From positions 1 through 64,000 of the forward strand of contig JADGDX010000004.1 in NCBI GenBank assembly GCA_016744675.1: a stretch of DNA of 64,000 bases, written 5' to 3'. The notes under the pieces were generated by a model. It saw only the letters and a list, made by a program, of their open reading frames with translations, was not told the origin of the DNA and did not search any database. This DNA is from Desulfuromusa sp. (GTDB taxonomy: Bacteria; Desulfobacterota; Desulfuromonadia; Desulfuromonadales; Geopsychrobacteraceae). Shown here piece after piece: positions 18,385 to 32,487 of the stretch. How positions within the stretch are numbered: position 1 is the stretch's first letter; every line of letters starts with the position of its first letter. Made by a program: the position numbers and the translations under genes.

Positions 18385-18579
18385 TTTGCGAGCGTCAAAC
18401 CCTTTAGAATTCGTTTAAGAAACTTTACTGACTTGAAATCTCTGGTAAAATCCAACCATGTGTAAGCTATAATTAACTATTGTAATTCTCCTCTTTCGAG
18501 ATTAATCTGTAAACGAGACGTTCCCAACAAAAAGACGCAATATGGTTCATTGGATAAACAGATCAAAAAAGGGCAGATA

Positions 18580-18831
18580 ATGAAGGAATCTCAGGGAAAT
18601 TCTGTTCGAGAAGCCTGGCTTTTGTGCCTCATCTTGGGGTTGATTATGATCAACTTCCCCTTCATCCACATTTTTAATACCGAGCAGTTACTTCTCGGCA
18701 TCCCAAATTTGGTTGTTTATTTCTTTATCGGCTGGCCAATATCTATCGCCGTCATCTGGTTTTTTACGAGTTGTCTCGATAATCAAAAACAAATCGCCCC
18801 TGAAAAAAACCAGGACAAGAGCGAACCATGA
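18580..18831 (+). CDS. Small two-TM protein, symporter small-subunit-like (DUF4212-type)
   Basis: Two hydrophobic helices; stop overlaps the next start (ATGA). Start may instead be 18550. Confidence 0.55.
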   Translation: MKESQGNSVREAWLLCLILGLIMINFPFIHIFNTEQLLLGIPNLVVYFFIGWPISIAVIWFFTSCLDNQKQIAPEKNQDKSEP

Positions 18832-21800
18832 ATAATACCCTGTTCATGTCGATAGTATCACCAAAAATTGTCTTGCTTGTCTCTCTGGGCTATTTTGCCT
18901 TGCTTTTCCTCGTTGCTTGTTATGCTGAAAAATGTCGCAAAAAAGGCAACTGCCTCTTAAAAAACTCACATATTTATTCATTATCCCTCGCTGTATATTG
19001 CACCAGCTGGACATTTTACGGCAGTGTTGGAAAAGCCGCCACTAGCGGCTTGGAATTCCTCCCTATCTATCTTGGTCCGACACTCATTGCCTTTGCCTGG
19101 TGGTTTTTACTACGTAAAATGGTCGTCATCAGCAAACAACAGAACATCACCAGTATCGCTGACTTTCTTTCCAGTCGTTATGATCGCTCAACTGTTCTCG
19201 GAGCCATCGTTACCCTCTTTGCTGTTTTTGGAATTACGCCCTACATTGCCCTTCAACTCAAAGCAATTGCACAAACATTAAGTATTCTGTCGATGCCCTC
19301 CACTGCTCCCCATACAGGATTATACGATTATACATCAAGTATCCCTGGGAGCATTGATATCGCTTTTTTCGTTGCTATCTTGCTCGCGTTATTCGGCATG
19401 CTATTCGGAGCGAGAAGCCTAAGTACATCAGAAAAACATGAGGGTTTAGTTGTTGCTGTAGCCTTTGAATCACTGGTTAAGCTGGTCGCTTTTCTCGCCG
19501 TAGGTATTTTTGTGACCTATGGGATGTTTGATGGCTTTAGTGACATTTTCCAACAGTTTTTTGAACAGTTTCCTGAAAGAAGAGATCTCTTGCTTCTAGG
19601 AACTGAAAGAACCCCCTATACAAAATGGTTTACCCTGATCATCCTATCGATGATGGCCATCATGTTTTTGCCGCGCCAATTCCATATTATGATTACAGAA
19701 AACACCGATGAAGAGTACATCAAGTCGGCAATGTGGAAATTTCCTGCCTACCTTTTTCTCATCAATCTTTTTGTCCTCCCTATCGCCTTAGGAGGGTTAA
19801 TTATCAATGGAGGCGACACAACGCAAGCAGACTATTTTGTTTTGACCTTGCCTTTATCGTCAGGCCATCCTTGGTTAGCATTACTGGTCTTCATTGGAGG
19901 TCTATCTGCATCTGCTGGCATGGTCATGGTGTCTTCTGTGACGATCTCAACTATGATCTTGAATCACTTGATCATGCCCATTATTCTAAAAATGAACATT
20001 CAAGCCCAAAGTATCTCTGGCCTACTCATTAACATTAAAAGACTCGGCATTTTAGGTGTCATTTTTATAGGTTATTTTTATTTTAAGGTGATTGGAAACT
20101 CCTATGCCCTCGTCAATATGGGGCTAATTTCCTTTGCGGCAGTCACTCAATTTGCCCCTGCCGTTATTGGTGGGCTTTTCTGGAAAAGGGCAAACCGTAA
20201 AGCGGCTATATCAGGCATCAGCCTTGGTTTTGCTTTATGGTTTTACACATTGCTCATTCCATCTTTTGTTCGCTCAGAGTGGATCAGTCCTGAGATTCTT
20301 CAAAATGGTCTTTTTGGTTTTAACCTTCTGAAGCCACTAGAACTTTTCGGCCTGCGCGGGTTTGATATGTACACTCATTCCCTGTTCTGGAGTCTCCTAT
20401 TCAATCTTGCGGCATATCTAACATTATCCTTTTTTGCTAAACAAACGGCATCAGAAGAACTCCAAGCTGAGAGATTTGTCGATGTCTTCATTGAGCAACT
20501 TCCTCAATCAGGACAATTAAAGCGTATCAGCAAAGCACCAACCGTCATGGAATTTGTTGAGCTGATGTCTAAATTTATTGGTGAGAAACCAGCCCAAACA
20601 GCCATAGCAGATTTCTTAAGTCACCAAGAAATTGACGCTAGAGGCAATCTCTCTGATCATGAGATTCCGAATTTAAAAAGCTTCACAGAACGAACCCTTG
20701 CTGGGTATGTTGGAGCAGCACCAGCGCGCATCATTCTCGAAAACTACCTGGAAGCTCGTGGCAGTGAGATGGAAGATGTCTTTGATATTTTTGGCACAGT
20801 CACAATCAGCCATGCTTCCAGTCGTGAACAGCTGAGTGTTTTATACGATGCTGCTCAGATTGTTTCCAGCGAAGGCGATTTTCAGAAAACTTTAGACAAT
20901 ATTCTCGAACTCCTTGCTCAACAATTCAAATTTGACCTTTGCGTTATCCGTTTTTTGGAACCTGAGTCCATGACACTTATGGTCAAAAGTCTGGTTGGTT
21001 CTTCTTCAGAACATTTTGGTCAATTTGAACGTAATCTCAATATGGAAACCTACATTGGCCAAGCGTTTCTCTCTAACGTAACCACTGTTGTTAATGATGC
21101 TGATTATATTGAAAAACCCATCTCAGCTGGACACATAAAGCGGGACGGTATTTCTTGCCTCGCCCACACTCCTATTATTTTTGAAGGCGAACCCATCGGG
21201 ATCATGTCAGCTTTTTCCAAAACAGCAAAAGGGATTTTCACCAACGAATTTATTGCATTGTTCGAAAACTTGGCGGGACAAGTCGGCATTGCCTGGCGAA
21301 ATGACCAACAATTGCAGAAACTATTACGAGGGCGTGAACAAGAGAGGGAAATGCAAATTGCAAAAGATATCCAAAAAACCCTACTTCCCTCAAACCTTCC
21401 TGACCTCGACAACATTGCGATAGCTGGACTCTGTGTTCCCGCTCATCAGGTCGGGGGTGATTACTACGATTTCATTGAACGTGAAAATTCGTCGTATGAT
21501 CTGATTATTGCTGATGTCTCTGGTCACAGCATCGGATCGGCCTTGATTATGGCTGAGACACGGACCTTTATTCATGCTCGCGTCGACAGTATCAGGCAGC
21601 CATCTGATATGTTACGTGCACTCAATAGTTATTTCTTGAAAGACCTGGATCGATCCGATCTTTTTGTGACCATGTTTTATCTACAGTACAACCCTATTAA
21701 TCGTCGACTTATCTATGGCAATGCAGGTCACAACACCCCGCTACTTTGGAAAAACAAAGAGAAAAAGATTGTTACTCTCGATACCGAGGGGATGATTTTC

Positions 21801-22070
21801 GGTATTAAAAACGATATCACCTTTGAGCAAAAAGCCACTGATCTTGACCCCGGTGATATCCTTCTTCTTTACACAGATGGTATTATTGAAGCCGAGAACA
21901 AAGAGAAGGTCTTTTTTGGCATTGAACGATTAGGGAAATTACTTGAAGAATGTGGAGATCTTCCCCCACAAGAATTGATCGACCGCATCATGACTCAGGG
22001 TCGTATTTTCACCGGCAAACGCCATTTCAACGACGATATTACTCTTGTTGCGATGAAAGTTTTAAAATAA
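18828..22070 (+). CDS. Sodium:solute symporter-like / STAC-like / GAF / SpoIIE-type PP2C phosphatase fusion
   Basis: N-terminal multi-TM symporter (SLSLAVYCTSWTFYGSVGKAATSG, FLPRQFHIMITEN); linker FTERTLAGYVGAAPARIILE as in CbrA-like sensors; C-terminal VGGDYYDF, ADVSGHSIGSAL, GNAGHNTP, LLYTDGIIEAE, DDITLVAM. Confidence 0.88.
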   Translation: MNNTLFMSIVSPKIVLLVSLGYFALLFLVACYAEKCRKKGNCLLKNSHIYSLSLAVYCTSWTFYGSVGKAATSGLEFLPIYLGPTLIAFAWWFLLRKMVVISKQQNITSIADFLSSRYDRSTVLGAIVTLFAVFGITPYIALQLKAIAQTLSILSMPSTAPHTGLYDYTSSIPGSIDIAFFVAILLALFGMLFGARSLSTSEKHEGLVVAVAFESLVKLVAFLAVGIFVTYGMFDGFSDIFQQFFEQFPERRDLLLLGTERTPYTKWFTLIILSMMAIMFLPRQFHIMITENTDEEYIKSAMWKFPAYLFLINLFVLPIALGGLIINGGDTTQADYFVLTLPLSSGHPWLALLVFIGGLSASAGMVMVSSVTISTMILNHLIMPIILKMNIQAQSISGLLINIKRLGILGVIFIGYFYFKVIGNSYALVNMGLISFAAVTQFAPAVIGGLFWKRANRKAAISGISLGFALWFYTLLIPSFVRSEWISPEILQNGLFGFNLLKPLELFGLRGFDMYTHSLFWSLLFNLAAYLTLSFFAKQTASEELQAERFVDVFIEQLPQSGQLKRISKAPTVMEFVELMSKFIGEKPAQTAIADFLSHQEIDARGNLSDHEIPNLKSFTERTLAGYVGAAPARIILENYLEARGSEMEDVFDIFGTVTISHASSREQLSVLYDAAQIVSSEGDFQKTLDNILELLAQQFKFDLCVIRFLEPESMTLMVKSLVGSSSEHFGQFERNLNMETYIGQAFLSNVTTVVNDADYIEKPISAGHIKRDGISCLAHTPIIFEGEPIGIMSAFSKTAKGIFTNEFIALFENLAGQVGIAWRNDQQLQKLLRGREQEREMQIAKDIQKTLLPSNLPDLDNIAIAGLCVPAHQVGGDYYDFIERENSSYDLIIADVSGHSIGSALIMAETRTFIHARVDSIRQPSDMLRALNSYFLKDLDRSDLFVTMFYLQYNPINRRLIYGNAGHNTPLLWKNKEKKIVTLDTEGMIFGIKNDITFEQKATDLDPGDILLLYTDGIIEAENKEKVFFGIERLGKLLEECGDLPPQELIDRIMTQGRIFTGKRHFNDDITLVAMKVLK

Positions 22071-22170
22071 CTTACTGGCTAGCAATTATACAGTCACCAG
22101 ACTAAAAATAGAGTACAATAACGAACATAGCAGCAAACACACCCTTAACTTCAAATACGGGAGAACTTAC

Positions 22171-22506
22171 ATGAAACTTAATATGACCGAACAAGGTGAT
22201 ATTGTCACAATTAGTATTGATGAAGAACGTATGGATGCCCACAACAGTGGTGACCTTAAAGAGAAGATGCTGCAACTATTTGATGAAGGAAAGTGTAGCC
22301 TTGTCATTGATTTAAGTGCAGTTCGATTTATCGATTCTTCAGGTCTAGGGGCTTTAGTTTCTGGCTTTAAAAATGCCAGTGCCAGAGAAGGAAATCTTAA
22401 GCTTTGCTGTCTGCAACCTCAGGTTCGCTCAATGTTTGAACTAACACGCTTACACCGCGTTTTTGAAATTTTTACAAACCAAGACGAAGCCCTAAATAGC
22501 TTCTGA
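22171..22506 (+). CDS. STAS-domain anti-sigma factor antagonist
   Basis: LVIDLSAVRFIDSSGLGALVSGFKNA with phosphorylatable DSSGLG. Confidence 0.94.
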   Translation: MKLNMTEQGDIVTISIDEERMDAHNSGDLKEKMLQLFDEGKCSLVIDLSAVRFIDSSGLGALVSGFKNASAREGNLKLCCLQPQVRSMFELTRLHRVFEIFTNQDEALNSF

Positions 22507-22515
22507 GAGTCATCT

Positions 22516-22938
22516 ATGTCCAGAGAGGTCAAAGTTGATATAACGGTTCCCAATCAAACTAAGTACCTAGGAATGATTGGAAGAATCGGTGAGAGTATCG
22601 CCTACTCCTTGAAATCATTTCAGGGGAATCGGCGCGAACTCGCCTACCATATCAATCTTGTCCTGACGGAAGCTCTTGCAAATGCGATAAGCCATGCAAA
22701 CGAATTTGATCCTGACAAAGATGTCAGAGTATTGATCTCAGCCTCTGATCAAGAATTGAAAATTAAAGTTTTTGATCAGGGGCTTGGGTTTGACATTGAA
22801 ACACTATCAAAACTTAAAGCAAAAGCAAGCGATGAGGGTGGGCGTGGTGTTCAGCTTATTTTTAAGCTCATGGACAAAGTTCGATATCTGCGAGAAGGCG
22901 ACTGCAACGTTCTTGAAATGCTTAAGTATCTCCATTAA
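22516..22938 (+). CDS. RsbW-like anti-sigma serine kinase (HATPase)
   Basis: LVLTEALANAISHANEFD, VFDQGLGFD, GGRGVQLIFKLMD. Confidence 0.92.
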   Translation: MSREVKVDITVPNQTKYLGMIGRIGESIAYSLKSFQGNRRELAYHINLVLTEALANAISHANEFDPDKDVRVLISASDQELKIKVFDQGLGFDIETLSKLKAKASDEGGRGVQLIFKLMDKVRYLREGDCNVLEMLKYLH

Positions 22939-22940
22939 TT

Positions 22941-24296
22941 TTATTGATTCTCTTCAACCCCATACTCCTTGAGCTTACGTCTTAGTGTTAGGCGATTGAT
23001 ACCTAAGATATCAGCCGTATGAGTTTTGTTGTGCTCTGTCCGCTTATAAACCGATAGCACATGTTTCTTTTCTACCTCAGAAAGAGAAACCATCTCCTCT
23101 GCGGCTAACTTCCCCTCACCACAACACCCAACCAAGGCCAAATCATCAGGGGATATCTTGCCCCCTTCATGGAGAAGAGTCGTTCGCTCAATCACGTTTT
23201 TCAGCTCTCTGACATTCCCAGGCCAAGAATGTTTCTTCAAACACGTTAAGGATTCACTACTAAATTCACAACGTTTGTCGAGGCTATGTAACAAAAACTC
23301 CTCAAGAAACAGATTGGCTAAAACAGGGATATCTTCGGGATGTTCGCGTAAAGGTGGAACACGAATTGGAAACACATTCAAACGGTAAAAAAGGTCCTCA
23401 CGGAAAAGCCCCTTTTTAATCCGCTCAAACAAATCTCTATTTGTTGCCGTTACAATTCTGACATTCACCTGAATTGATTGTTGCCCGCCAATCCGGGTGA
23501 CTGTCATATCCTCTAGAACCCGAAGCAGCTTAGCCTGTAACCCCGGTTCCATTTCAGCAATTTCATCTAAAAATAACGTTCCGTGGTCCGCAAGTTCAAA
23601 AAGCCCCTTCTGACGACTCCGTGCATCAGTATAAGCCCCCTTTTCGTGTCCAAAAAGTTCATTTTCTAATAACGATGCCGGTAAGGCAGCACAATTAATC
23701 TTAAGAAGGGGGCCTTCACGCCGAGCACTTTGATAATGGATGGCTTCTGCCACCAACTCTTTTCCGACACCACTCTCTCCAAGAATAAGAGTTGTTGTTG
23801 TGTCTGCTTTAGCGACCAATAGAATTTCTTGCCTTATCTTGCTTAATGCATTGGACTCACCAATTAATCGTGTCCATGACTGCTTGTTTCGCTGTTTTTC
23901 TCGCAATCTGAAAGAATTAACTTCCCCCCGAAGTTGCCGTGTATCCATCGCCCTCTCAACGATCAATTGCATTTCATCAAGATCGAAGGGCTTATTGATA
24001 TAGTCATAAGCTCCAAGCTTTAATGCATGAACAGCTGTTTGAACTTCTGGATAAGCAGTCGCAACAATCACCAGCAAAGATTTCAAATCTGAAATTTCCG
24101 AGAGGAGATCGAGCCCTGACCCATCGGGCAATTTCATATCCAGAATCATCAAATCGAAGTTATGCCGAGCCAATTGTTTACGAGCACAACGGAGATTTTC
24201 TGCCCCTATCGCTTCATAACCTTCCTGCTTAAAAAAATCGACCAGACTATCACGCAAAACTTCTTCATCTTCTACGATTATAATGCGCCCGCGCAT
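22941..24296 (-). CDS. NtrC-family sigma54-dependent response regulator
   Basis: REC domain (LMILDMKLPDGSG), AAA+ GESGVGKELVAEAIH, loop GAYTDA, C-terminal Fis-type HTH. Confidence 0.95.
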   Translation of the reverse strand: MRGRIIIVEDEEVLRDSLVDFFKQEGYEAIGAENLRCARKQLARHNFDLMILDMKLPDGSGLDLLSEISDLKSLLVIVATAYPEVQTAVHALKLGAYDYINKPFDLDEMQLIVERAMDTRQLRGEVNSFRLREKQRNKQSWTRLIGESNALSKIRQEILLVAKADTTTTLILGESGVGKELVAEAIHYQSARREGPLLKINCAALPASLLENELFGHEKGAYTDARSRQKGLFELADHGTLFLDEIAEMEPGLQAKLLRVLEDMTVTRIGGQQSIQVNVRIVTATNRDLFERIKKGLFREDLFYRLNVFPIRVPPLREHPEDIPVLANLFLEEFLLHSLDKRCEFSSESLTCLKKHSWPGNVRELKNVIERTTLLHEGGKISPDDLALVGCCGEGKLAAEEMVSLSEVEKKHVLSVYKRTEHNKTHTADILGINRLTLRRKLKEYGVEENQ

Positions 24297-26248
24297 TCGC
24301 TACCTCCCCGAGGAAAAACAATGATCGCCTCAACACCCACCTGAGATCTGTCTTTCAAACTAACTTCTCCCCTTAGTTCATCAACCAACTGTTTTACAAT
24401 AGCTAGACCCAAACCCGTCCCATATGACTTACTCGTGACCAAAGGTTCAAACAATTGATCAATAAGATCTTCTGGCAAACCACAGCCATTATCAAGCACC
24501 CTTACCTCGATCAGATCTTCAATAGTATCTACAAATACATCAACCTGCCCTCCAACTTCACAAGCTTGCAAAGCGTTTAAAATAAGATTCATAAATATTT
24601 GATGAAGGTGTTGTGCCTTTGAGCAAACGAGAAAAGGAGCATCAGGTAAATGTAATTGCAGATCAATTTCCATTCGATCCGCTTCTTCGCAAAGGATAAA
24701 TGCTAAATCGCGTAATACTTGATTTATATCTGTCCCTTCTTTCTCAAAGTTTTGCTGTGGTTTCAGATTTCCTCTCAAATGACCAATAAAAGCTCCCAAG
24801 CGATCAACTAATTTTAGCATTTTAGCAATATCGGTCTGAAGGTCAGGATCAAGTTCCTTACGTCTTTGCAACATCTGCAATTTAATTCGCAATCCTGCTA
24901 GGGGGTTACCAATTTCATGAGCGACAGTTGCAGATAACATCCCCAAAGAGGAGAGTCTATTCGCCTGAAGAAGCTGTTTTTCGAGCGTATCCATCAAGAT
25001 TTTTGCATTATCAGCTTCTTCTTGAGTCCGTCTGAGGTCTGCAACTTTAAGCTCAACTTCATCCTTCAAAAGAGCATTCCAATGGGTCAGCTCTCTATGT
25101 GACTCTTTTTGTGCTTGTGCCATCTCATTTAAAGCATGAGAAAGCTGTCCCAACTCATCACGACTGCGAATGTCTGAACGTACGTCAAAATGACCACCTG
25201 CAACTTGATTAGCGAATTTCGACAAGCGATGAATAGGAAGGCTGAAGGTTCGAGCGGCAGCAATTGCCAGCCCAGAGACAATAATTGCAATAAAGATTAA
25301 AGAAAAAATGAAAGTTTGTTTTAACTGATAAATCTGAGTATATAAATGCTTTTGCGGATAACTAATTGTCAAATACCATAAGCGGTCAGAACCTGCACTC
25401 ACAGGCGTTATTGCTTGAATATCGGTTCCAGATGTTGAAATCTGCACCCCATCATCGGGCCTGAGAAACTCAGAAAACTCGGTATCGGTATGATTCAACT
25501 CTGACATTTCTGCGCAGGTAAAATGTGATTGGCCAAACTTATTCTCCATTTTGACAAATTGACGCCCTTGGTTGAGCAATAAGACCCTTGCCTCGTCCAC
25601 AGAAACCAACTGTTCCAGAGTTGAAAACAGTTTTTCCCCAAAAACATTAACTACGACCAACCCCAAAATTTCTCCAGCTTTATCAGCAATTGGAGTTGCA
25701 ATTCGAACGACGAGATTATTAGGAACTTCAATTTGACCAAATTCAATATTCAGATCAAGATGCGAGACATATGTCTTACCCGCAGCATACTGAAAAGCCT
25801 CCTGAACATAATAACGATCGCCTTTATATTGTAATTGTGAATCAGGGACCAAAAAAGGTTGGCCATCGACATTATTAATTCGCAGTTGCTCATAGCCATC
25901 TATTGAAATAAATCGTAATTGGTAATAGTCCTTCTCAACCATAATGGCTGCCAAAAATTCATTCTGAACGAGACTCCACTGATCAGCCTCCATTCCATCC
26001 TGCAAACTCCGTTGTAAAAAACGGGCAAGAGAACGAACATCCCTCTTCACACCATTAAGGTAATCCTCTATAGCACTCGCTGCCGTTACGGCTTCAACCT
26101 GCAGACTTCGCTTCACCTGCCCCTGTAAAACCTTTTCTATCTTACCGATAAAAAAATTCCCTAGAATCAAGAGGGGAACAAGCGCCAAACCTAAGAAAGC
26201 AACCAGCATTTTTTTTCGAATTGAAAAAGAAAACTGAGGAATCCACAT
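24278..26248 (-). CDS. Membrane sensor histidine kinase (extracytoplasmic sensor, HAMP, HisKA, HATPase)
   Basis: ATVAHEIGNPLAGLRIKLQML; VLDNGCGLPEDLIDQLFEPLVTSKSYGTGLGLAIVKQ; overlaps regulator ORF. Confidence 0.94.
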   Translation of the reverse strand: MWIPQFSFSIRKKMLVAFLGLALVPLLILGNFFIGKIEKVLQGQVKRSLQVEAVTAASAIEDYLNGVKRDVRSLARFLQRSLQDGMEADQWSLVQNEFLAAIMVEKDYYQLRFISIDGYEQLRINNVDGQPFLVPDSQLQYKGDRYYVQEAFQYAAGKTYVSHLDLNIEFGQIEVPNNLVVRIATPIADKAGEILGLVVVNVFGEKLFSTLEQLVSVDEARVLLLNQGRQFVKMENKFGQSHFTCAEMSELNHTDTEFSEFLRPDDGVQISTSGTDIQAITPVSAGSDRLWYLTISYPQKHLYTQIYQLKQTFIFSLIFIAIIVSGLAIAAARTFSLPIHRLSKFANQVAGGHFDVRSDIRSRDELGQLSHALNEMAQAQKESHRELTHWNALLKDEVELKVADLRRTQEEADNAKILMDTLEKQLLQANRLSSLGMLSATVAHEIGNPLAGLRIKLQMLQRRKELDPDLQTDIAKMLKLVDRLGAFIGHLRGNLKPQQNFEKEGTDINQVLRDLAFILCEEADRMEIDLQLHLPDAPFLVCSKAQHLHQIFMNLILNALQACEVGGQVDVFVDTIEDLIEVRVLDNGCGLPEDLIDQLFEPLVTSKSYGTGLGLAIVKQLVDELRGEVSLKDRSQVGVEAIIVFPRGGSECAGAL

Positions 26249-26428
26249 ATTAATTAAGTTCCTAATGAATGATCAAAAAAACAAAGAAACAAGATTAACG
26301 GTAAATAAAACTCAACAAGATCAAAGATACCACAAGTGGCGATTATTGTACCATCGAGACGGTTCATTTATTACCAGCTGAGACATGAAGTTAAAACCAA
26401 CTCCTTGTTTTTACATATACATTATGTA

Positions 26429-26444
26429 TGGCACAATTTCTGCT
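26429..26444 (+). promoter_or_regulatory. Sigma54 (-24/-12) promoter
   Basis: TGGCACAATTTCTGCT: GG and GC elements separated by exactly 10 bp, upstream of the cytochrome operon. Confidence 0.75.
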
Positions 26445-26599
26445 TTGTTTATTATTGCAATAGGAGAACCAAGATAATTTTTCTCCTTACGTCAATAATA
26501 GTTTAGAAGAACCCCGTTAAATCAAACAGAAACTTTATAGAATTATAAAAAGCAGCCTTTGTCAGCTCATTAATACTTTGACTTTGGAGAGATCTTCAC

Positions 26600-27259
26600 A
26601 TGGGAAACAATGGGAAAAAAACTCATTTTGAGCAAGGTGAGTTCTGGAAAAAAGTTATTCTTCCAGGCACCGTTATTCTTCTCCTTTTTTTTATTTTCTG
26701 GGGGGACAGCAAACCTCCCATCCCTAGTCCTGTTCCCCTAAATGCTGAATGGTACTCACCAGAAACAGCTCGTGGAGAGATCCTGGTAAATACAGTTATG
26801 CCTGGAAACTGCTTTATTTGCCACAGTGTACAAATTCCCGATCCCACAACGATTAGCCCTCAGTTTGCCCACATAACTGTGAAGCTCGAACATGGCGTTA
26901 ATGATCGTTGCTACAACTGCCATCATATTTATGATCGCGACAGCCTTGCTGGCGACGGTGAATCAAAAATATCGTTTGCAACTCCAGAAAGGTTGTGCGC
27001 TCGTTGTCACGGTATAATTGTTCGCGATTGGAAGGACGGGACTCATGGATTAAGGCAAGGAGGATGGTTAGTCAAAGGCGGAAAAGACCCCGTTAACTTT
27101 ACCTGTACCGAATGCCATGACCCACATACACCACAATTTAAATATATGCATGCGGCACCAGCACCAACCTGGCCAGAGAAAACGCTTCGCCAAAGCCGAC
27201 AATCTGATGATGACCCTAAGTCAGCCTTTTTGACTGAATCTATCCAGGAGAGATTCTGA
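26600..27259 (+). CDS. Membrane-anchored tetraheme c-type cytochrome
   Basis: N-terminal TM; four CXXCH motifs (CFICH, CYNCH, CARCH, CTECH). Confidence 0.92.
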   Translation: MGNNGKKTHFEQGEFWKKVILPGTVILLLFFIFWGDSKPPIPSPVPLNAEWYSPETARGEILVNTVMPGNCFICHSVQIPDPTTISPQFAHITVKLEHGVNDRCYNCHHIYDRDSLAGDGESKISFATPERLCARCHGIIVRDWKDGTHGLRQGGWLVKGGKDPVNFTCTECHDPHTPQFKYMHAAPAPTWPEKTLRQSRQSDDDPKSAFLTESIQERF

Positions 27260-28209
27260 TGAGTAAGGAAGAGCAAAATAATCACGATGAGACAAACCAA
27301 AACCCGCAAGAACCGACTATCAGCCGTCGCTATTTCCTTGCTGGATCTGCTTGTCTCTCTGTCGCCACTGCCGTTTCTTTATCCCCACTTCTCAATGCAG
27401 AAGAAGTCCCCTCAAGTGAGGACTTAATTCAAAAACACTACAAAGAATTAAGCACAGAAGAAAAAAAAGAAATCTTTGCCAAACTTGAGTCTGAAATCAA
27501 TCAACAATATGGGGTGACCGCAAAAATTTCTGACCCAGCTCCACTAGACGGAGTTGAATTTGCTTACGTACTTAATCTTGGCCGCTGCATTGGTTGTCGA
27601 AAATGTGTTTATGCCTGCATGGATGAAAACAATCAGTCAAGAAGCCCACAAAAACAATATATCCGTGTCATGAAAATGAAAAAAGGGACGATTAACTTAG
27701 AAACATCCAGTCATGACTATCCTGAGAAAGAAGCTTCTAGCAAAGATCATTTTTATATGCCTGTTGCTTGTCAGCAATGTCGCGAACCCAAGTGTATTGA
27801 GGTGTGCCCGGTAAAAGCGACTTGGAAGGAAAAGGATGGCATCGTCGTCGTTGACTATAACTGGTGCATAGGTTGTCGCTATTGTGAAGCCGCTTGTCCC
27901 TACCATGCGCGACGCTTTAATTTTGCCAAGCCACAAATTCCAAAACAAGAAATCAATCCAGATATGGGCTATTTATCAAATAGACCGCGCTACATGGGGG
28001 TCATGGAAAAATGTACCTTCTGCCTACACAAAACCCGACGTGGAGAATACCCCTCTTGCATGGAAGTTTGCCCAACAGGGTCGCGTAAATTTGGCAACAT
28101 TAGAGATCCAGAAAGTGAAGTTAGAAAAATCATTGAGCAGGAACGGGTCTTTGTCCTCAAGCAAGAAGTTGGAACATTACCGAAATTTTACTACACCTTT
28201 GCTAAATAG
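27259..28209 (+). CDS. Periplasmic 4x[4Fe-4S] ferredoxin-like subunit with Tat signal (DmsB/HybA/NrfC type)
   Basis: SRRYFLAGS twin-arginine signal; CIGCRKCVYAC, CQQCREPKCIEVC, CIGCRYCEAAC, CTFCLHKTRRGEYPSCMEVC. Confidence 0.94.
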   Translation: MSKEEQNNHDETNQNPQEPTISRRYFLAGSACLSVATAVSLSPLLNAEEVPSSEDLIQKHYKELSTEEKKEIFAKLESEINQQYGVTAKISDPAPLDGVEFAYVLNLGRCIGCRKCVYACMDENNQSRSPQKQYIRVMKMKKGTINLETSSHDYPEKEASSKDHFYMPVACQQCREPKCIEVCPVKATWKEKDGIVVVDYNWCIGCRYCEAACPYHARRFNFAKPQIPKQEINPDMGYLSNRPRYMGVMEKCTFCLHKTRRGEYPSCMEVCPTGSRKFGNIRDPESEVRKIIEQERVFVLKQEVGTLPKFYYTFAK

Positions 28210-28258
28210 TTGTTGGGGAAGAATTATCACTACCAACAACCGCAAAAAGGGTTAAGAA

Positions 28259-29470
28259 ATGAATACAGGTTTTCCAAAAGTTTTCAATGATCTGGCAAAA
28301 ACGGTTCTGCTCGGCAACCGAACCTATTCCTTGTGGATGTTTGTGTTGATTGCCATTAGCTTGCTTGGCCTCAATGCCTTCAGTCGACAATTAGCTCATG
28401 GTTTGTATACAACAGGAATGGGTGATGAGGTGTCATGGGGCTTATATATCTCCAACTTCGCCTTTTTAGTCGGTATGGCTGCAGCAGCTGTCATGATGGT
28501 CATTCCAGCTTACATATTTAAAGATGAAGAAATTCACAAAGTCGTCATATTCACTGAACTTTGGGCGATTGCTGCGCTGGTCATGTGTCTTCTCTTTGTT
28601 ACAGCAGATATCGGTCGACCAGACCGACTCTGGCATATGTTTCCCGTAATTGGAGTCTTCAACTGGCCAACATCCATGCTCACCTGGGATGTTCTTGTCT
28701 TAAATGGCTACCTCTTACTCAATCTCTATGTCTGTGGTTACGTCCTCTATAAAAAATATATGGGACAAAAACTTGTTGCAAAGCATTACATACCAATCGT
28801 ATTTCTCGCAATTGCATGGGCCCCACTCATTCACACAATCACCGCATTTTTATTCCAGGGTTTAGGTGCAAGACCATTTTGGCATAGCGGCCTGATAGCG
28901 CCTCGTTTTCTCGCTTCAGCATTTGCTGCCGGGCCAGCGTTCATTATTCTTGTATTTAAAATCATGGATCACTATAAGTGTTGCACAATTCACAAAGATG
29001 TTATTGCCAAAATTCGCATTATTGTCACTGTCAGTCTCCTCGTTAACCTGCTCTTGGTTGGGTCTGAGTTATTTACAGAACTTTATTCAGGATCAGAGCA
29101 TTCCATCCATTTAAGCTTCTTACTCGGTTTTCACGGAAAAAGCGTTCTGGCGCCATGGATATGGTCTGCTATAGCACTAAATGTTATAGCAGCTGCTATT
29201 CTTCTTTTACCTGCTCGTGAAAACCCACGATTCCTAACGATTGCATGTGTCATGATTATTATCGGAATTTGGGTTGAAAAAGGCCTTGGATTTGTCATCT
29301 CCGGGTTTATTCCAACTCCTCTTGGTGATTTTGTTCAATACCAACCCACTCTTAACGAATTAACTGTCTGTTTCGGTATTCTTGCCTTTGGGCTCTTAAT
29401 TTATACAGCTCTGTTGAAAATTGCAGTGCCGATTATCAATGGTCAGCTTTGTCAGAGAAAGGTTGATTAG
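28259..29470 (+). CDS. NrfD/PsrC-family membrane quinone-interacting subunit
   Basis: Polytopic; GMGDEVSWGLYISNFAFLVGMAAAAVMMV; follows the FeS subunit. Confidence 0.92.
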   Translation: MNTGFPKVFNDLAKTVLLGNRTYSLWMFVLIAISLLGLNAFSRQLAHGLYTTGMGDEVSWGLYISNFAFLVGMAAAAVMMVIPAYIFKDEEIHKVVIFTELWAIAALVMCLLFVTADIGRPDRLWHMFPVIGVFNWPTSMLTWDVLVLNGYLLLNLYVCGYVLYKKYMGQKLVAKHYIPIVFLAIAWAPLIHTITAFLFQGLGARPFWHSGLIAPRFLASAFAAGPAFIILVFKIMDHYKCCTIHKDVIAKIRIIVTVSLLVNLLLVGSELFTELYSGSEHSIHLSFLLGFHGKSVLAPWIWSAIALNVIAAAILLLPARENPRFLTIACVMIIIGIWVEKGLGFVISGFIPTPLGDFVQYQPTLNELTVCFGILAFGLLIYTALLKIAVPIINGQLCQRKVD

Positions 29471-29564
29471 TAACAACTGCCAGCTTTCAATTGCTTCCCC
29501 TTGATTGAAATTCTTGACATCAGGCGGGAACATATTTCAACCAGTACGAAAAAGGGAGGTAAAT

Positions 29565-31925
29565 GTGCAAAAAAACTTGTTGATGTGTCTACTGGCCAGT
29601 GTGGTCGTCTTCAGCTTTGGCACAATGGCGTACGCAGGAGGTGGATGTACAACCACCGATTGCCACGCAGGGCTAGAAGAGATCGTTCCGACAGATTTAC
29701 CAATGTCACAACAGCTCAAAATGAATGGTCAAATGCATGGTGACCCAGATGGCTGTGTTATGTGTCATGGTGGAAACCCCATGGCAACCAAAAAAGAAGA
29801 AGCACACAAGGGTGTTCCCGCAACATTGAGGATGGCACCTGGCCCTAAGGACTACTATCCAGATCCAGGTTCAATTTGGATCTCTGATAATACCTGTGGC
29901 ATTTGTCATGTTGGGTACACCTACCGCGCAAAGACCTCCCTCATGAATACTGAAGCAGGGAAGATTTCTGGAAACATGCATACATGGGGCTTCGAAGAGA
30001 CTCAAAACTTCCAGAATCCATGGGGCAATTATGCTGTTACCGATCAAGATGGCCAAACCCCGATGATCGGAACTGAAGCATATAAAAGCTACATGAAAGA
30101 TCAAATTAGTATGTACCCAAATCAGTATCCAAAAAAATTGGACCTGATGCCAAATCCAACAGTTGAAGAGGTTAAAAAAGATCCTAAAAAGGCCGCTTTC
30201 GCCTACCAACGCCAAGATTGCAACCGTTGCCATATCGGTGTTCGTGGACGTGAAAAGCGCGGTGACTATCGCGGTATGGGCTGTTCAGCCTGCCACATCC
30301 TCTATAGCAATGATGGCTACTACGAGGGCAAAGACAAGAGCATCAATCCAGATGAAAAAGGACATATGCTCAAACACCAAATTATTGGAAATCGCAAGAC
30401 CGGCGGCATTCCAGTGGAAACCTGCAGTTCATGCCATAATCGCGGAAAACGCATTGGTGTTTCGTTCCAAGGTCTGATGGAATTCCCATACGGTTCACCA
30501 TTCAATGAAGATGGTGGAAAACAACCCAAACTACACACTAAAAAATATATGTTTGTTTCTGATGACCTCCATCATCAGCAGCAAAGTAGAAAAGGCAACC
30601 CAGAGGGTGGCCTACTCTGTCAAGACTGCCATACAAGTATTGACATGCACGGTGATGGCAACATTCATGGGACAACAATGGGACAAGTTGAAATCGAATG
30701 TACCGATTGTCACGGAACTCCTCAAAGCTACCCATGGGAACTTCCCGTTGGTTATGGTGATGAGTTTGGAAAAAAAGCTCAAACAAAAGCTCGAGGCACA
30801 GCAGAAAAATTGTTGATTGTCGGCCAACAATTTGGTTATCCCTATGACGCTGAAGATGGATTTGTTCTCTCTGCGCGCGGAAACCCAATGGGTAATGTTA
30901 TCCGTCGTGGAAATAAAGTCATCGTTCACTCTGCAACAGGAAATGATTTTGAAGTCCCTGACCTTAAAGGCCTCTCCATCAGCAACAAGTGGAAAGATCC
31001 AACTGCTGAAGTTGCAATGAGTGCGGTCAGTGGTCACTTGGAAAAAATGGAGTGTTACACCTGTCATGCTTCTTGGGCTCCACAATGTTATGGATGTCAT
31101 GTCAAGATTGACTACAGCAGTGATAAGAATGGCAAGCAAAAAGGTGGAACTGATTGGATCGCCTCAGGCAACAGTCATGATTCACAAGGGCAAACAGCTG
31201 AATCCAAACTAGGCAGCAAAGGGATATTCACATCAGGCAAACCTATGGAAACTCGTTCTTACTTACGTTGGGAAGACCCTGTTCTTGGAATCGGTGGTGA
31301 AGGTAGGGTAACGCCATTAATGCCTGGCTGTCAGGTTGTTTATACTGTCGTTGACGATACAGGTGCTGTCATAGCCAACAATATGATCGCAGATGCCCCC
31401 GATGAAGCTAAATATCGTGGCCAAGAGCATGTTCCACTAGCAATAGACATGTCCCCTGTTCAACCACACACAGCTCAACGTAAGGCCCGTACCTGCGAAA
31501 GCTGCCATGGCAATGCCAAGGTTGCGGGTTTAGGGATTGGAGATGGGACCTTTGGTAACATGCAAAACAAAGATATTGTCTTTGATTTGATGGATGCGAA
31601 AACCCGTGAAATCATTCCAGAGAAATACACGGTTCAAATCCAGGCAATACCAAAACTTGACTTTGACTGGTCACAAATTGTTACACGCGAGGGAAAACAG
31701 CTCGCTACAGTTGGAAGTCACTGGCCTCTGAGTCGGGCATTTAATAAAGAAGAAATTGAAACTTTCATGCGTACTGGAACCTGCATGGGATGTCACCAGA
31801 ACATGAGTGAAAAAGAACTCTGGAAGAAGGTCAGCGAGGATGGTCAATTGGATATGAAGAAGCACTCTGAGCTGATGAACAAGATGCTTAAAACCATGGC
31901 AGAGAAGAACCCTGTCAAAAAGTAA
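29565..31925 (+). CDS. Exported multiheme c-type cytochrome (11 CXXCH plus 1 CX4CH)
   Basis: GTG start at 29565 with GGGAGG SD at 29554-29559 and signal peptide VQKNLLMCLLASVVVFSFGTMAYAGGG; CVMCH, CGICH, CNRCH, CSACH, CSSCH, CQDCH, CTDCH, CYTCH, CYGCH, CESCH, CMGCH plus CTTTDCH. Confidence 0.92.
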   Translation: MQKNLLMCLLASVVVFSFGTMAYAGGGCTTTDCHAGLEEIVPTDLPMSQQLKMNGQMHGDPDGCVMCHGGNPMATKKEEAHKGVPATLRMAPGPKDYYPDPGSIWISDNTCGICHVGYTYRAKTSLMNTEAGKISGNMHTWGFEETQNFQNPWGNYAVTDQDGQTPMIGTEAYKSYMKDQISMYPNQYPKKLDLMPNPTVEEVKKDPKKAAFAYQRQDCNRCHIGVRGREKRGDYRGMGCSACHILYSNDGYYEGKDKSINPDEKGHMLKHQIIGNRKTGGIPVETCSSCHNRGKRIGVSFQGLMEFPYGSPFNEDGGKQPKLHTKKYMFVSDDLHHQQQSRKGNPEGGLLCQDCHTSIDMHGDGNIHGTTMGQVEIECTDCHGTPQSYPWELPVGYGDEFGKKAQTKARGTAEKLLIVGQQFGYPYDAEDGFVLSARGNPMGNVIRRGNKVIVHSATGNDFEVPDLKGLSISNKWKDPTAEVAMSAVSGHLEKMECYTCHASWAPQCYGCHVKIDYSSDKNGKQKGGTDWIASGNSHDSQGQTAESKLGSKGIFTSGKPMETRSYLRWEDPVLGIGGEGRVTPLMPGCQVVYTVVDDTGAVIANNMIADAPDEAKYRGQEHVPLAIDMSPVQPHTAQRKARTCESCHGNAKVAGLGIGDGTFGNMQNKDIVFDLMDAKTREIIPEKYTVQIQAIPKLDFDWSQIVTREGKQLATVGSHWPLSRAFNKEEIETFMRTGTCMGCHQNMSEKELWKKVSEDGQLDMKKHSELMNKMLKTMAEKNPVKK

Positions 31926-31953
31926 TTCATAAAAAGAGTTCTTACCTATCATG

Positions 31954-31984
31954 CCCCGGCAGTGACAACTGCCGGGGATTTTTT
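31954..31984 (+). terminator. Rho-independent terminator of the cytochrome operon
   Basis: CCCCGGCAG-TGACAA-CTGCCGGGG followed by ATTTTTT. Confidence 0.93.
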
Positions 31985-32010
31985 CTTTTCAGCTGAGAAA
32001 GATTCATATT

Positions 32011-32487
32011 GTGAATTTACAAATACTAAGATTGGTTGCTTCGATTCAAATTTTTGGTGGCACTTGGGGAATCGCAATCATGCTTTATAGGATGCTCGAT
32101 GTTCTTGATAACTTACAATTTATTATCTATTTATTGATTTATCTGGTTCCATTTATTTTCAGTATTTTGGCAGGCATTCAGTTATTAAAGAAACGAACTT
32201 CTGGCTTAAACCTCTCCCTCGCAGTGCAATTGGTACAGGTTCCATATTTTGCCTTTAATGGTCTTTATTACTCTTTCATTTCAGGTTTATTGCTGGGGAT
32301 AAGAGTTAGTATTCTTGAAGGGATGAAAAAATTTAACTTTAATTTCAGTATTGGCGGATATTGTCAGGTACAAACCGGATTGCCCGTTGAGTTGACGGCA
32401 ATTGGCATAAATGTTTTTGCCCTGATAACATTTTGTTTTTTGCTTGGGAACAGAATAAAAAACATCAAAGAAGATTTATCTAAATAA
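32011..32487 (+). CDS. Hypothetical polytopic membrane protein
   Basis: ORF with several hydrophobic segments in codirectional context; start could be GTG or an internal codon. Confidence 0.5.
   Translation: MNLQILRLVASIQIFGGTWGIAIMLYRMLDVLDNLQFIIYLLIYLVPFIFSILAGIQLLKKRTSGLNLSLAVQLVQVPYFAFNGLYYSFISGLLLGIRVSILEGMKKFNFNFSIGGYCQVQTGLPVELTAIGINVFALITFCFLLGNRIKNIKEDLSK

Follow-up and report, generated by a model that had tools for sequence, protein, structure and literature searches.

Four adjoining genes were analysed in a 64,000-nucleotide stretch of Desulfuromusa sp. DNA (positions 1 to 64,000 of contig JADGDX010000004.1, assembly GCA_016744675.1; this whole stretch is referred to as the window). 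They encode a small putative membrane protein, a 1080-amino-acid fusion in which a transporter-like SLC5 domain is joined through STAC and GAF domains to a SpoIIE/PP2C phosphatase, a STAS protein and an RsbW-like kinase. The module is interpreted as a partner switch whose sensor phosphatase has a CbrA/CrbS-type SLC5-STAC transceptor as its basis, and the full mechanism proposed below, taken as a joint claim, is considered probable. All four open reading frames given in a preliminary description of this DNA were found at their coordinates. The features are as follows.

18580–18831, + strand: putative CbrX-type small membrane protein, 83 amino acids (sequence; two predicted helices; ATGA overlap with the fusion gene)
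18828–22070, + strand: SLC5-STAC-GAF-SpoIIE sensor phosphatase, 1080 amino acids (Pfam, structure matches, alignment, AlphaFold model)
18828–20438, + strand: SLC5 (LeuT-fold) domain, residues about 1–537 (10ed_A match, residue mapping)
19479–19481, + strand: codon of K218, the equivalent of CbrA K196 at the Na2 site (residue mapping)
20523–20762, + strand: STAC domain, residues about 566–645 (within the 10ed alignment; four helices in the AlphaFold model)
20877–21296, + strand: GAF domain, residues 684–823 (Pfam, PDB 2qyb)
21243–21383, + strand: helical linker from GAF to phosphatase, helices 806–829 and 836–852 (AlphaFold secondary structure; site of the RsbU-type signalling linker)
21492–22061, + strand: SpoIIE/PP2C phosphatase domain, residues 889–1078 (Pfam; all metal-binding acidic residues kept)
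22171–22506, + strand: STAS anti-anti-sigma-type protein, 111 amino acids, DSSGLG invariant (Pfam, NCBIfam, alignment)
22516–22938, + strand: RsbW/SpoIIAB-like kinase, 140 amino acids, with N box, DxGxGF and GRG boxes kept (Pfam, alignment)

The small gene had been started at TTG 18550; ATG 18580, which lies behind AGGG and gives the 83-amino-acid product, is probably the true start. Its end overlaps the start of the fusion gene in the sequence ATGA (18828–18831). Scans of the module for promoters and terminators gave signals no better than shuffle level.

Architecture of the fusion and its partners

Pfam identified a SpoIIE domain (residues 889–1078, 3.4e-48) and a GAF_2 domain (residues 684–823, 3.1e-13) in the 1080-amino-acid protein, and the Pfam SSF model gave no match on its N-terminal half. 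Residues 15–644 matched the cryo-electron microscopy chain of the CbrA SLC5-STAC region (10ed_A, E 8e-73), and residues 674–840 matched PDB 2qyb, a GAF structure from a putative membrane protein of Geobacter sulfurreducens, at 1.5e-28. The SLC5 LeuT-fold assignment (13 transmembrane segments in the CbrA/CrbS family) comes from these structure matches and not from a topology-program count. An AlphaFold model built from 16 sequences (mean predicted local distance difference test score, pLDDT, 74.5; predicted template modelling score 0.57) begins with a helical transporter, has four helices where STAC is expected (573–584, 586–597, 612–628 and 630–643) and continues with the GAF domain, a helical linker and a PP2C fold. 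With this model as query, Foldseek returned SGLT/NIS transporters, the 2qyb GAF structure and the PP2C phosphatases RssB, SiaA and Rv1364c. The STAC assignment is based on the four model helices and on the 10ed alignment, which reaches chain residue 595; the LGPxxA motif is degenerate (VGAAPA). The preliminary description had placed SLC5-like, STAC-like, GAF and SpoIIE domains in this one reading frame, with a phosphatase output in place of the histidine kinase of CbrA-type sensors, and the Pfam, 10ed and 2qyb matches bear out both points.

The acidic phosphatase motifs named earlier were all present. Seven aspartates (D878, D881, D891, D896, D1017, D1069 and D1070) were invariant in 16 aligned sequences, from relatives 41–85 % identical to the window protein, and the inactive phosphatase that had been named beforehand as a ground for rejecting the module was thus not encountered. 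The gene that follows encodes a STAS protein (Pfam STAS 2.1e-23; NCBIfam ant_ant_sig above its cut-off) in which DSSGLG was kept in all ten aligned sequences, and the last gene encodes a kinase of the HATPase_c_2 family (Pfam, 7.9e-21) whose N box (E52/N56/H60), DxGxGF and GRG boxes were invariant. The predicted order, a DSSGLG-bearing STAS protein and then an RsbW-like kinase directly 3' of the fusion, therefore holds in the window; the NCBIfam RsbW models gave the kinase 45.9 bits, below their equivalog cut-off of 145 bits. In the window's genome the fusion was the only SpoIIE-domain protein, the STAS protein the only free-standing STAS and the kinase the only free-standing HATPase_c_2 protein above the cut-off, so that there are no other obvious partners for any of the three there.

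For the small protein, an AlphaFold model of its own predicted helices at 7–24 and 43–70 with low confidence (pLDDT 66). Pfam and NCBIfam held no family for it and a profile search of the PDB returned nothing; weak matches to DUF3311 were obtained for two of 21 members of its family and were not used. The proposed likeness to a symporter small subunit was not borne out, as no symporter-subunit family was matched in the libraries searched; the ATGA overlap stood. A profile built from the 21 members (threshold at least 20 bits) detected a homologue directly 5' of 55 of 63 kinase-type SLC5-STAC genes, compared with none of 1215 control regions taken upstream of other large reading frames at the same loci, and the genes with a companion span Pseudomonadota, Bacteroidota, Chloroflexota and others. 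On these matches the small protein is classed as a CbrX-type companion found across SLC5-STAC sensors. For CbrX itself two roles are published, one as a two-helix subunit bound to CbrA (PMC13022988) and one in translational coupling (PMC6591292); in growth tests CbrA works without the CbrX protein. CbrX of P. aestuarii scored only 7.1 bits against the enlarged profile; this homology is weak, and CbrX proper would be at best a divergent member of the family. Across phyla, a two-helix homologue of the window's small reading frame abuts most kinase-type SLC5-STAC genes (loci L083–L145), and these proteins look like an unnamed general companion family of such sensors.

Conservation of the module and origin of its phosphatase output

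The fusion was found in 169 of 200 Desulfuromonadia genomes that were at least 90 % complete, representing 60 of 67 genera and including Geobacteraceae. The relatives with names are members of the Desulfuromonadales and Geobacteraceae (Malonomonas, Geothermobacter, Citrifermentans and Geomonas among them), and the class was read as Desulfuromonadia from these names. Among the 60 nearest genomes it was carried by 58, in some as pieces split between contigs and in one (G010) as an edge fragment only; the two negative genomes belong to one family, f4. The STAS and RsbW genes adjoined the fusion gene on its 3' side and on the same strand in 62 of 66 fusion loci (counted without redundancy) whose sequence continues for 850 bases or more past the gene, and an orthologue of the small gene was present in 61 of the 62 complete modules. 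Consistent separation of the STAS and HATPase genes from the fusion gene, the second condition under which the preliminary description was to be abandoned, thus did not occur. The four loci that lacked STAS and RsbW (L153, L155 twice and L031) were second copies, and the main copy in those genomes had both genes. At phylum level an RsbW orthologue (E ≤ 1e-20) was found in 17 of 395 genomes, exactly the 17 with a full-length SpoIIE fusion, and every one of the 60 relatives had one RsbW orthologue (with an additional fragment in one relative), the two fusion-negative genomes included. Maintenance of the four-gene order across relatives rules out a chance arrangement.

A maximum-likelihood tree of 110 SLC5-STAC domains placed all 63 SpoIIE-bearing rows on one side of a branch with a Shimodaira–Hasegawa-like approximate likelihood ratio test (SH-aLRT) value of 99; the tree was made by a quick method, with SH-aLRT values without bootstrap and a midpoint root only. 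Histidine kinases with SLC5-STAC-GAF sensors (L035–L048), encoded in other classes of this phylum, stood next to the SpoIIE clade; they have the closest sensor halves in the tree, the same GAF domain and, in nine of 13 loci, the same small companion, but end in a histidine kinase and have no adjacent STAS or RsbW gene. The simplest reading of a single SpoIIE clade beside GAF kinases is that a kinase output was replaced by SpoIIE once, probably followed by vertical descent.

Some further observations concern other copies of these domains. Second fusion copies without STAS and RsbW at L153, L155 and L172 adjoin unrelated genes. The fusion frames in L158 and L015 have one internal stop each, which may reflect either decay or sequence error. 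Another SpoIIE-domain protein of about 720 amino acids (34–37 % in the phosphatase) occurs in most genomes of the window's genus, for example G008:C19, G004:C49 and G012:C39, and is not found in the window's genome.

The neighbours of the module in relatives are HAD, lgt, RluA, TPR and APH-AAA_33 genes. A same-strand gene of roughly 520 amino acids precedes the small gene in Geobacteraceae and several other families (loci including L147, L148, L154, L156, L157, L165, L073 and L079) and encodes an APH-like plus AAA_33 kinase where annotated; it is not at this place in the window. On the other side, the RsbW gene is separated by about 9.5 kb (22941–32484) from the HAD-lgt-RluA genes, which in relatives such as L070 adjoin the module directly. 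This segment, apparently a lineage-specific insertion, contains genes for a sigma-54 response regulator and kinase and genes of cytochrome and ferredoxin type. The sigma-54 response regulator and its kinase (22941–26248) were rejected as parts of the module, being convergent with it and not kept at that place in relatives.

Possible signal, proposed switch and candidate targets

In CbrA the Na2 site is occupied by K196, giving proton coupling (PMC13022988). The equivalent residue of the fusion, K218, was lysine in 76 of 77 SpoIIE-type fusions, and the same lysine was present in all 78 kinase-type sequences (64/64 and 14/14). Sodium coupling, for which the preliminary description had proposed a check of sodium-binding residues, is unlikely because the site holds the proton-switch lysine of CbrA, and the SLC5 domain of the fusion is probably coupled to H+ instead. 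In the most divergent fusion (locus L036, genome G302) K218 is replaced by Val and R283 by Glu; this genome is small and lacks a sigma factor at RpoS level, and a transport-type function may possibly have been lost there together with a target.

At 12 CbrA positions (the pocket plus K196) the fusion was identical to a CrbS-like protein of P. aestuarii (12/12), named CrbS from its length (a 1164-amino-acid frame) and similarity, and it differed from P. putida CbrA by S53T, A56T, C74I, F248S, S251A and H257R. Acetate is a main substrate of Geobacter. CrbS regulates acetate use (PMC5715377), which together with the CrbS-like pocket and the Geobacter diet hints, weakly, that the ligand could possibly be a small carboxylate such as acetate.

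We infer the following cycle. The RsbW-like kinase would phosphorylate the STAS protein at the serine of DSSGLG. A signalling state of the SLC5 domain, the GAF domain or both would act through the STAC domain and helical linker to join two SpoIIE domains in an active dimer, which would dephosphorylate the phosphorylated STAS protein. Unphosphorylated STAS would then bind the kinase and so free an unlinked target, or would itself act on that target. The CbrX-type small protein would be a membrane companion of the SLC5 domain, its translation coupled to that of the sensor. Activation by linker-driven dimerization has been proposed as common to PAS, GAF and receiver sensors of this phosphatase family (PPM) (PMC12143880), and the same is proposed, by analogy, for the phosphatase of the fusion.

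Several observations weigh against this interpretation. The fusion was absent from all nine listed genomes of family f4; two of them, G039 and G059, lack the fusion and the small gene with STAS-RsbW still in the expected place, and in G039 the APH-AAA_33 gene found 5' of the module in many relatives is also still there. Both genomes have SpoIIE-domain matches elsewhere, and the retention of STAS-RsbW indicates that the switch is not absolutely dependent on this sensor and can run with another phosphatase. Second fusion copies without STAS and RsbW (L153, L155 and L031) exist as well. The pocket residues are common to most SLC5-STAC proteins and so do not fix the ligand, and SLC5 swaps and STAC deletions leave CbrA/CrbS signalling largely intact (PMC5715377, PMC9100948).

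This last point bears on what is sensed. Transport is dispensable for signalling in characterized CbrA/CrbS proteins, and chimeras show that CbrA signals without its own SLC5 domain (PMC5715377). Of the earlier proposal, then, the reading as a partner switch with an SLC5-phosphatase fusion as its input was upheld, whilst the control of dephosphorylation by solute transport or binding is reduced to a suggestion. Sensing may not reside in the SLC5 domain, and it is possible, if doubtful, that the GAF domain senses a cytoplasmic metabolite with SLC5-STAC serving as membrane anchor and dimer scaffold; besides the exchangeability of SLC5 and the small effect of STAC deletion in CbrA and CrbS (PMC5715377; PMC9100948), all full-length SpoIIE-type fusions that were scored had a GAF domain. 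A purely passive anchor would, however, leave unexplained why 76 of 77 fusions retain the SLC5 pocket and the Na2-site lysine whilst the GAF domain diverges faster across the class.

For the SLC5-STAC partner switch preferred here, the preliminary description had reported no sigma factor nearby and had left the final target open. Both statements stand: no sigma-70 gene was present on the window's 115-kb contig, and no sigma gene was adjacent to the module in relatives' loci with annotated neighbours. The window's genome has four sigma-70 factors (RpoD-, RpoS- and FliA-like and one extracytoplasmic function factor), none on the module's contig, and no match to RpoH. G302 keeps the whole module with only RpoD-, RpoH- and FliA-like sigma factors and no RpoS-level match, and G037 carries the module with no FliA-level match. 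No alternative sigma-70 factor was therefore universal among carriers, as read from draft genomes, which can miss a gene.

Control of RpoS, as by CrsR-CrsA in Shewanella and HsbR-HsbA in Pseudomonas, has the best single precedent (PMC6482189), and an RpoS-like sigma factor is present in the window's genome and in nearly all sampled class members. The lack of an RpoS-level match in G302 counts against it (the G302 fusion is also the most divergent), as does the unclean discrimination between RpoS and RpoD by the RpoS model in this phylum, where RpoD also passes the threshold; this target is regarded as a tentative candidate. It is about equally conceivable that the switch has a target other than a sigma factor, with free STAS or kinase acting on another enzyme, as with SiaC/SiaD or HsbA/HsbD. 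The missing universal sigma factor and the lack of an adjacent sigma gene in annotated loci favour this possibility, but neither a diguanylate cyclase nor another candidate enzyme is adjacent either, and the target could differ by lineage or have been missed in draft genomes. An extended version, in which Desulfuromonadia use the module as their main switch for carbon status, with acetate or a similar carboxylate in a proton-coupled SLC5 pocket setting the phosphorylation of one STAS protein, a non-sigma output and the CbrX-type protein serving every SLC5-STAC sensor as a third subunit, is improbable as a whole. Least probable is that the gene order is only an inherited neighbourhood and the fusion acts on other substrates, since, although flanking TPR, peptide ABC transporter, lgt, HAD and RluA genes are also syntenic in relatives and fusion paralogues without STAS and RsbW exist, the order is kept on the Geobacteraceae side of the class too, where several other neighbours differ, and the window's genome has no other free STAS.

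Relation to known systems

The module shares with CbrA of Pseudomonas and with the CrbS/RpuS kinases an SLC5 LeuT fold with the Na2-site lysine, a STAC domain and a small two-helix protein encoded just 5' by an overlapping gene, and its pocket residues are identical to those of the CrbS-like protein of P. aestuarii. It differs from them in having SpoIIE/PP2C, STAS and an RsbW-like partner in place of a histidine kinase and response regulator, and a GAF domain where the kinases have PAS. RsbU-RsbV-RsbW and SpoIIE-SpoIIAA-SpoIIAB comprise the same three enzyme and substrate families, with catalytic residues kept, but the module has a membrane transceptor as sensor and no adjacent sigma factor. 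The RpoS switches CrsR-CrsA and HsbR-HsbA likewise combine PP2C, kinase and STAS in Gram-negative bacteria without SigB; there the receiver, PP2C and kinase form one response regulator, whereas here phosphatase and kinase are separate genes, with an SLC5 sensor and no receiver domain. In SiaABCD a diguanylate cyclase is encoded with the phosphatase, kinase and STAS protein, and none is found among the module's neighbours; the SiaA model gave no full match to the fusion (37.5 bits against a cut-off of 700).

Proteins with SSS, GAF and PP2C_SIG (and in some cases HATPase) domains in Actinobacteria were listed from a domain database in a 2021 review (PMC7918813), so that the union of a symporter-like domain with GAF and PP2C is already in print; STAC, partner genes and conservation were not described there, and the comparison with the module draws on that description. 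STAC proteins with kinase or GGDEF outputs have also been published (PMC5715377). No account of the module, in Geobacter or otherwise, was found in the literature searched, an absence that is not proof of novelty. What appears new is the wiring of a standard partner switch to an SLC5-STAC sensor whose output is a phosphatase.

The module amounts to an exchange of outputs made by nature: the transporter-like sensor that drives kinases elsewhere has a phosphatase attached in this lineage. This agrees with the proposal (PMC12143880) that sensors coupled through a linker can be moved from one output to another. CbrX-type small proteins were shown to accompany most of the SLC5-STAC sensors examined. 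SLC5 signalling gains a genetically testable case, because a phosphatase output on one dedicated STAS protein is easier to read than the broad regulon of CbrA. Nearly all of Geobacter and its relatives have the module, mostly as a single copy, and partner switching in these bacteria appears to be uncharacterized; the module suggests that in Geobacter-type bacteria nutrient status may be linked to regulation by a route that has yet to be characterized.

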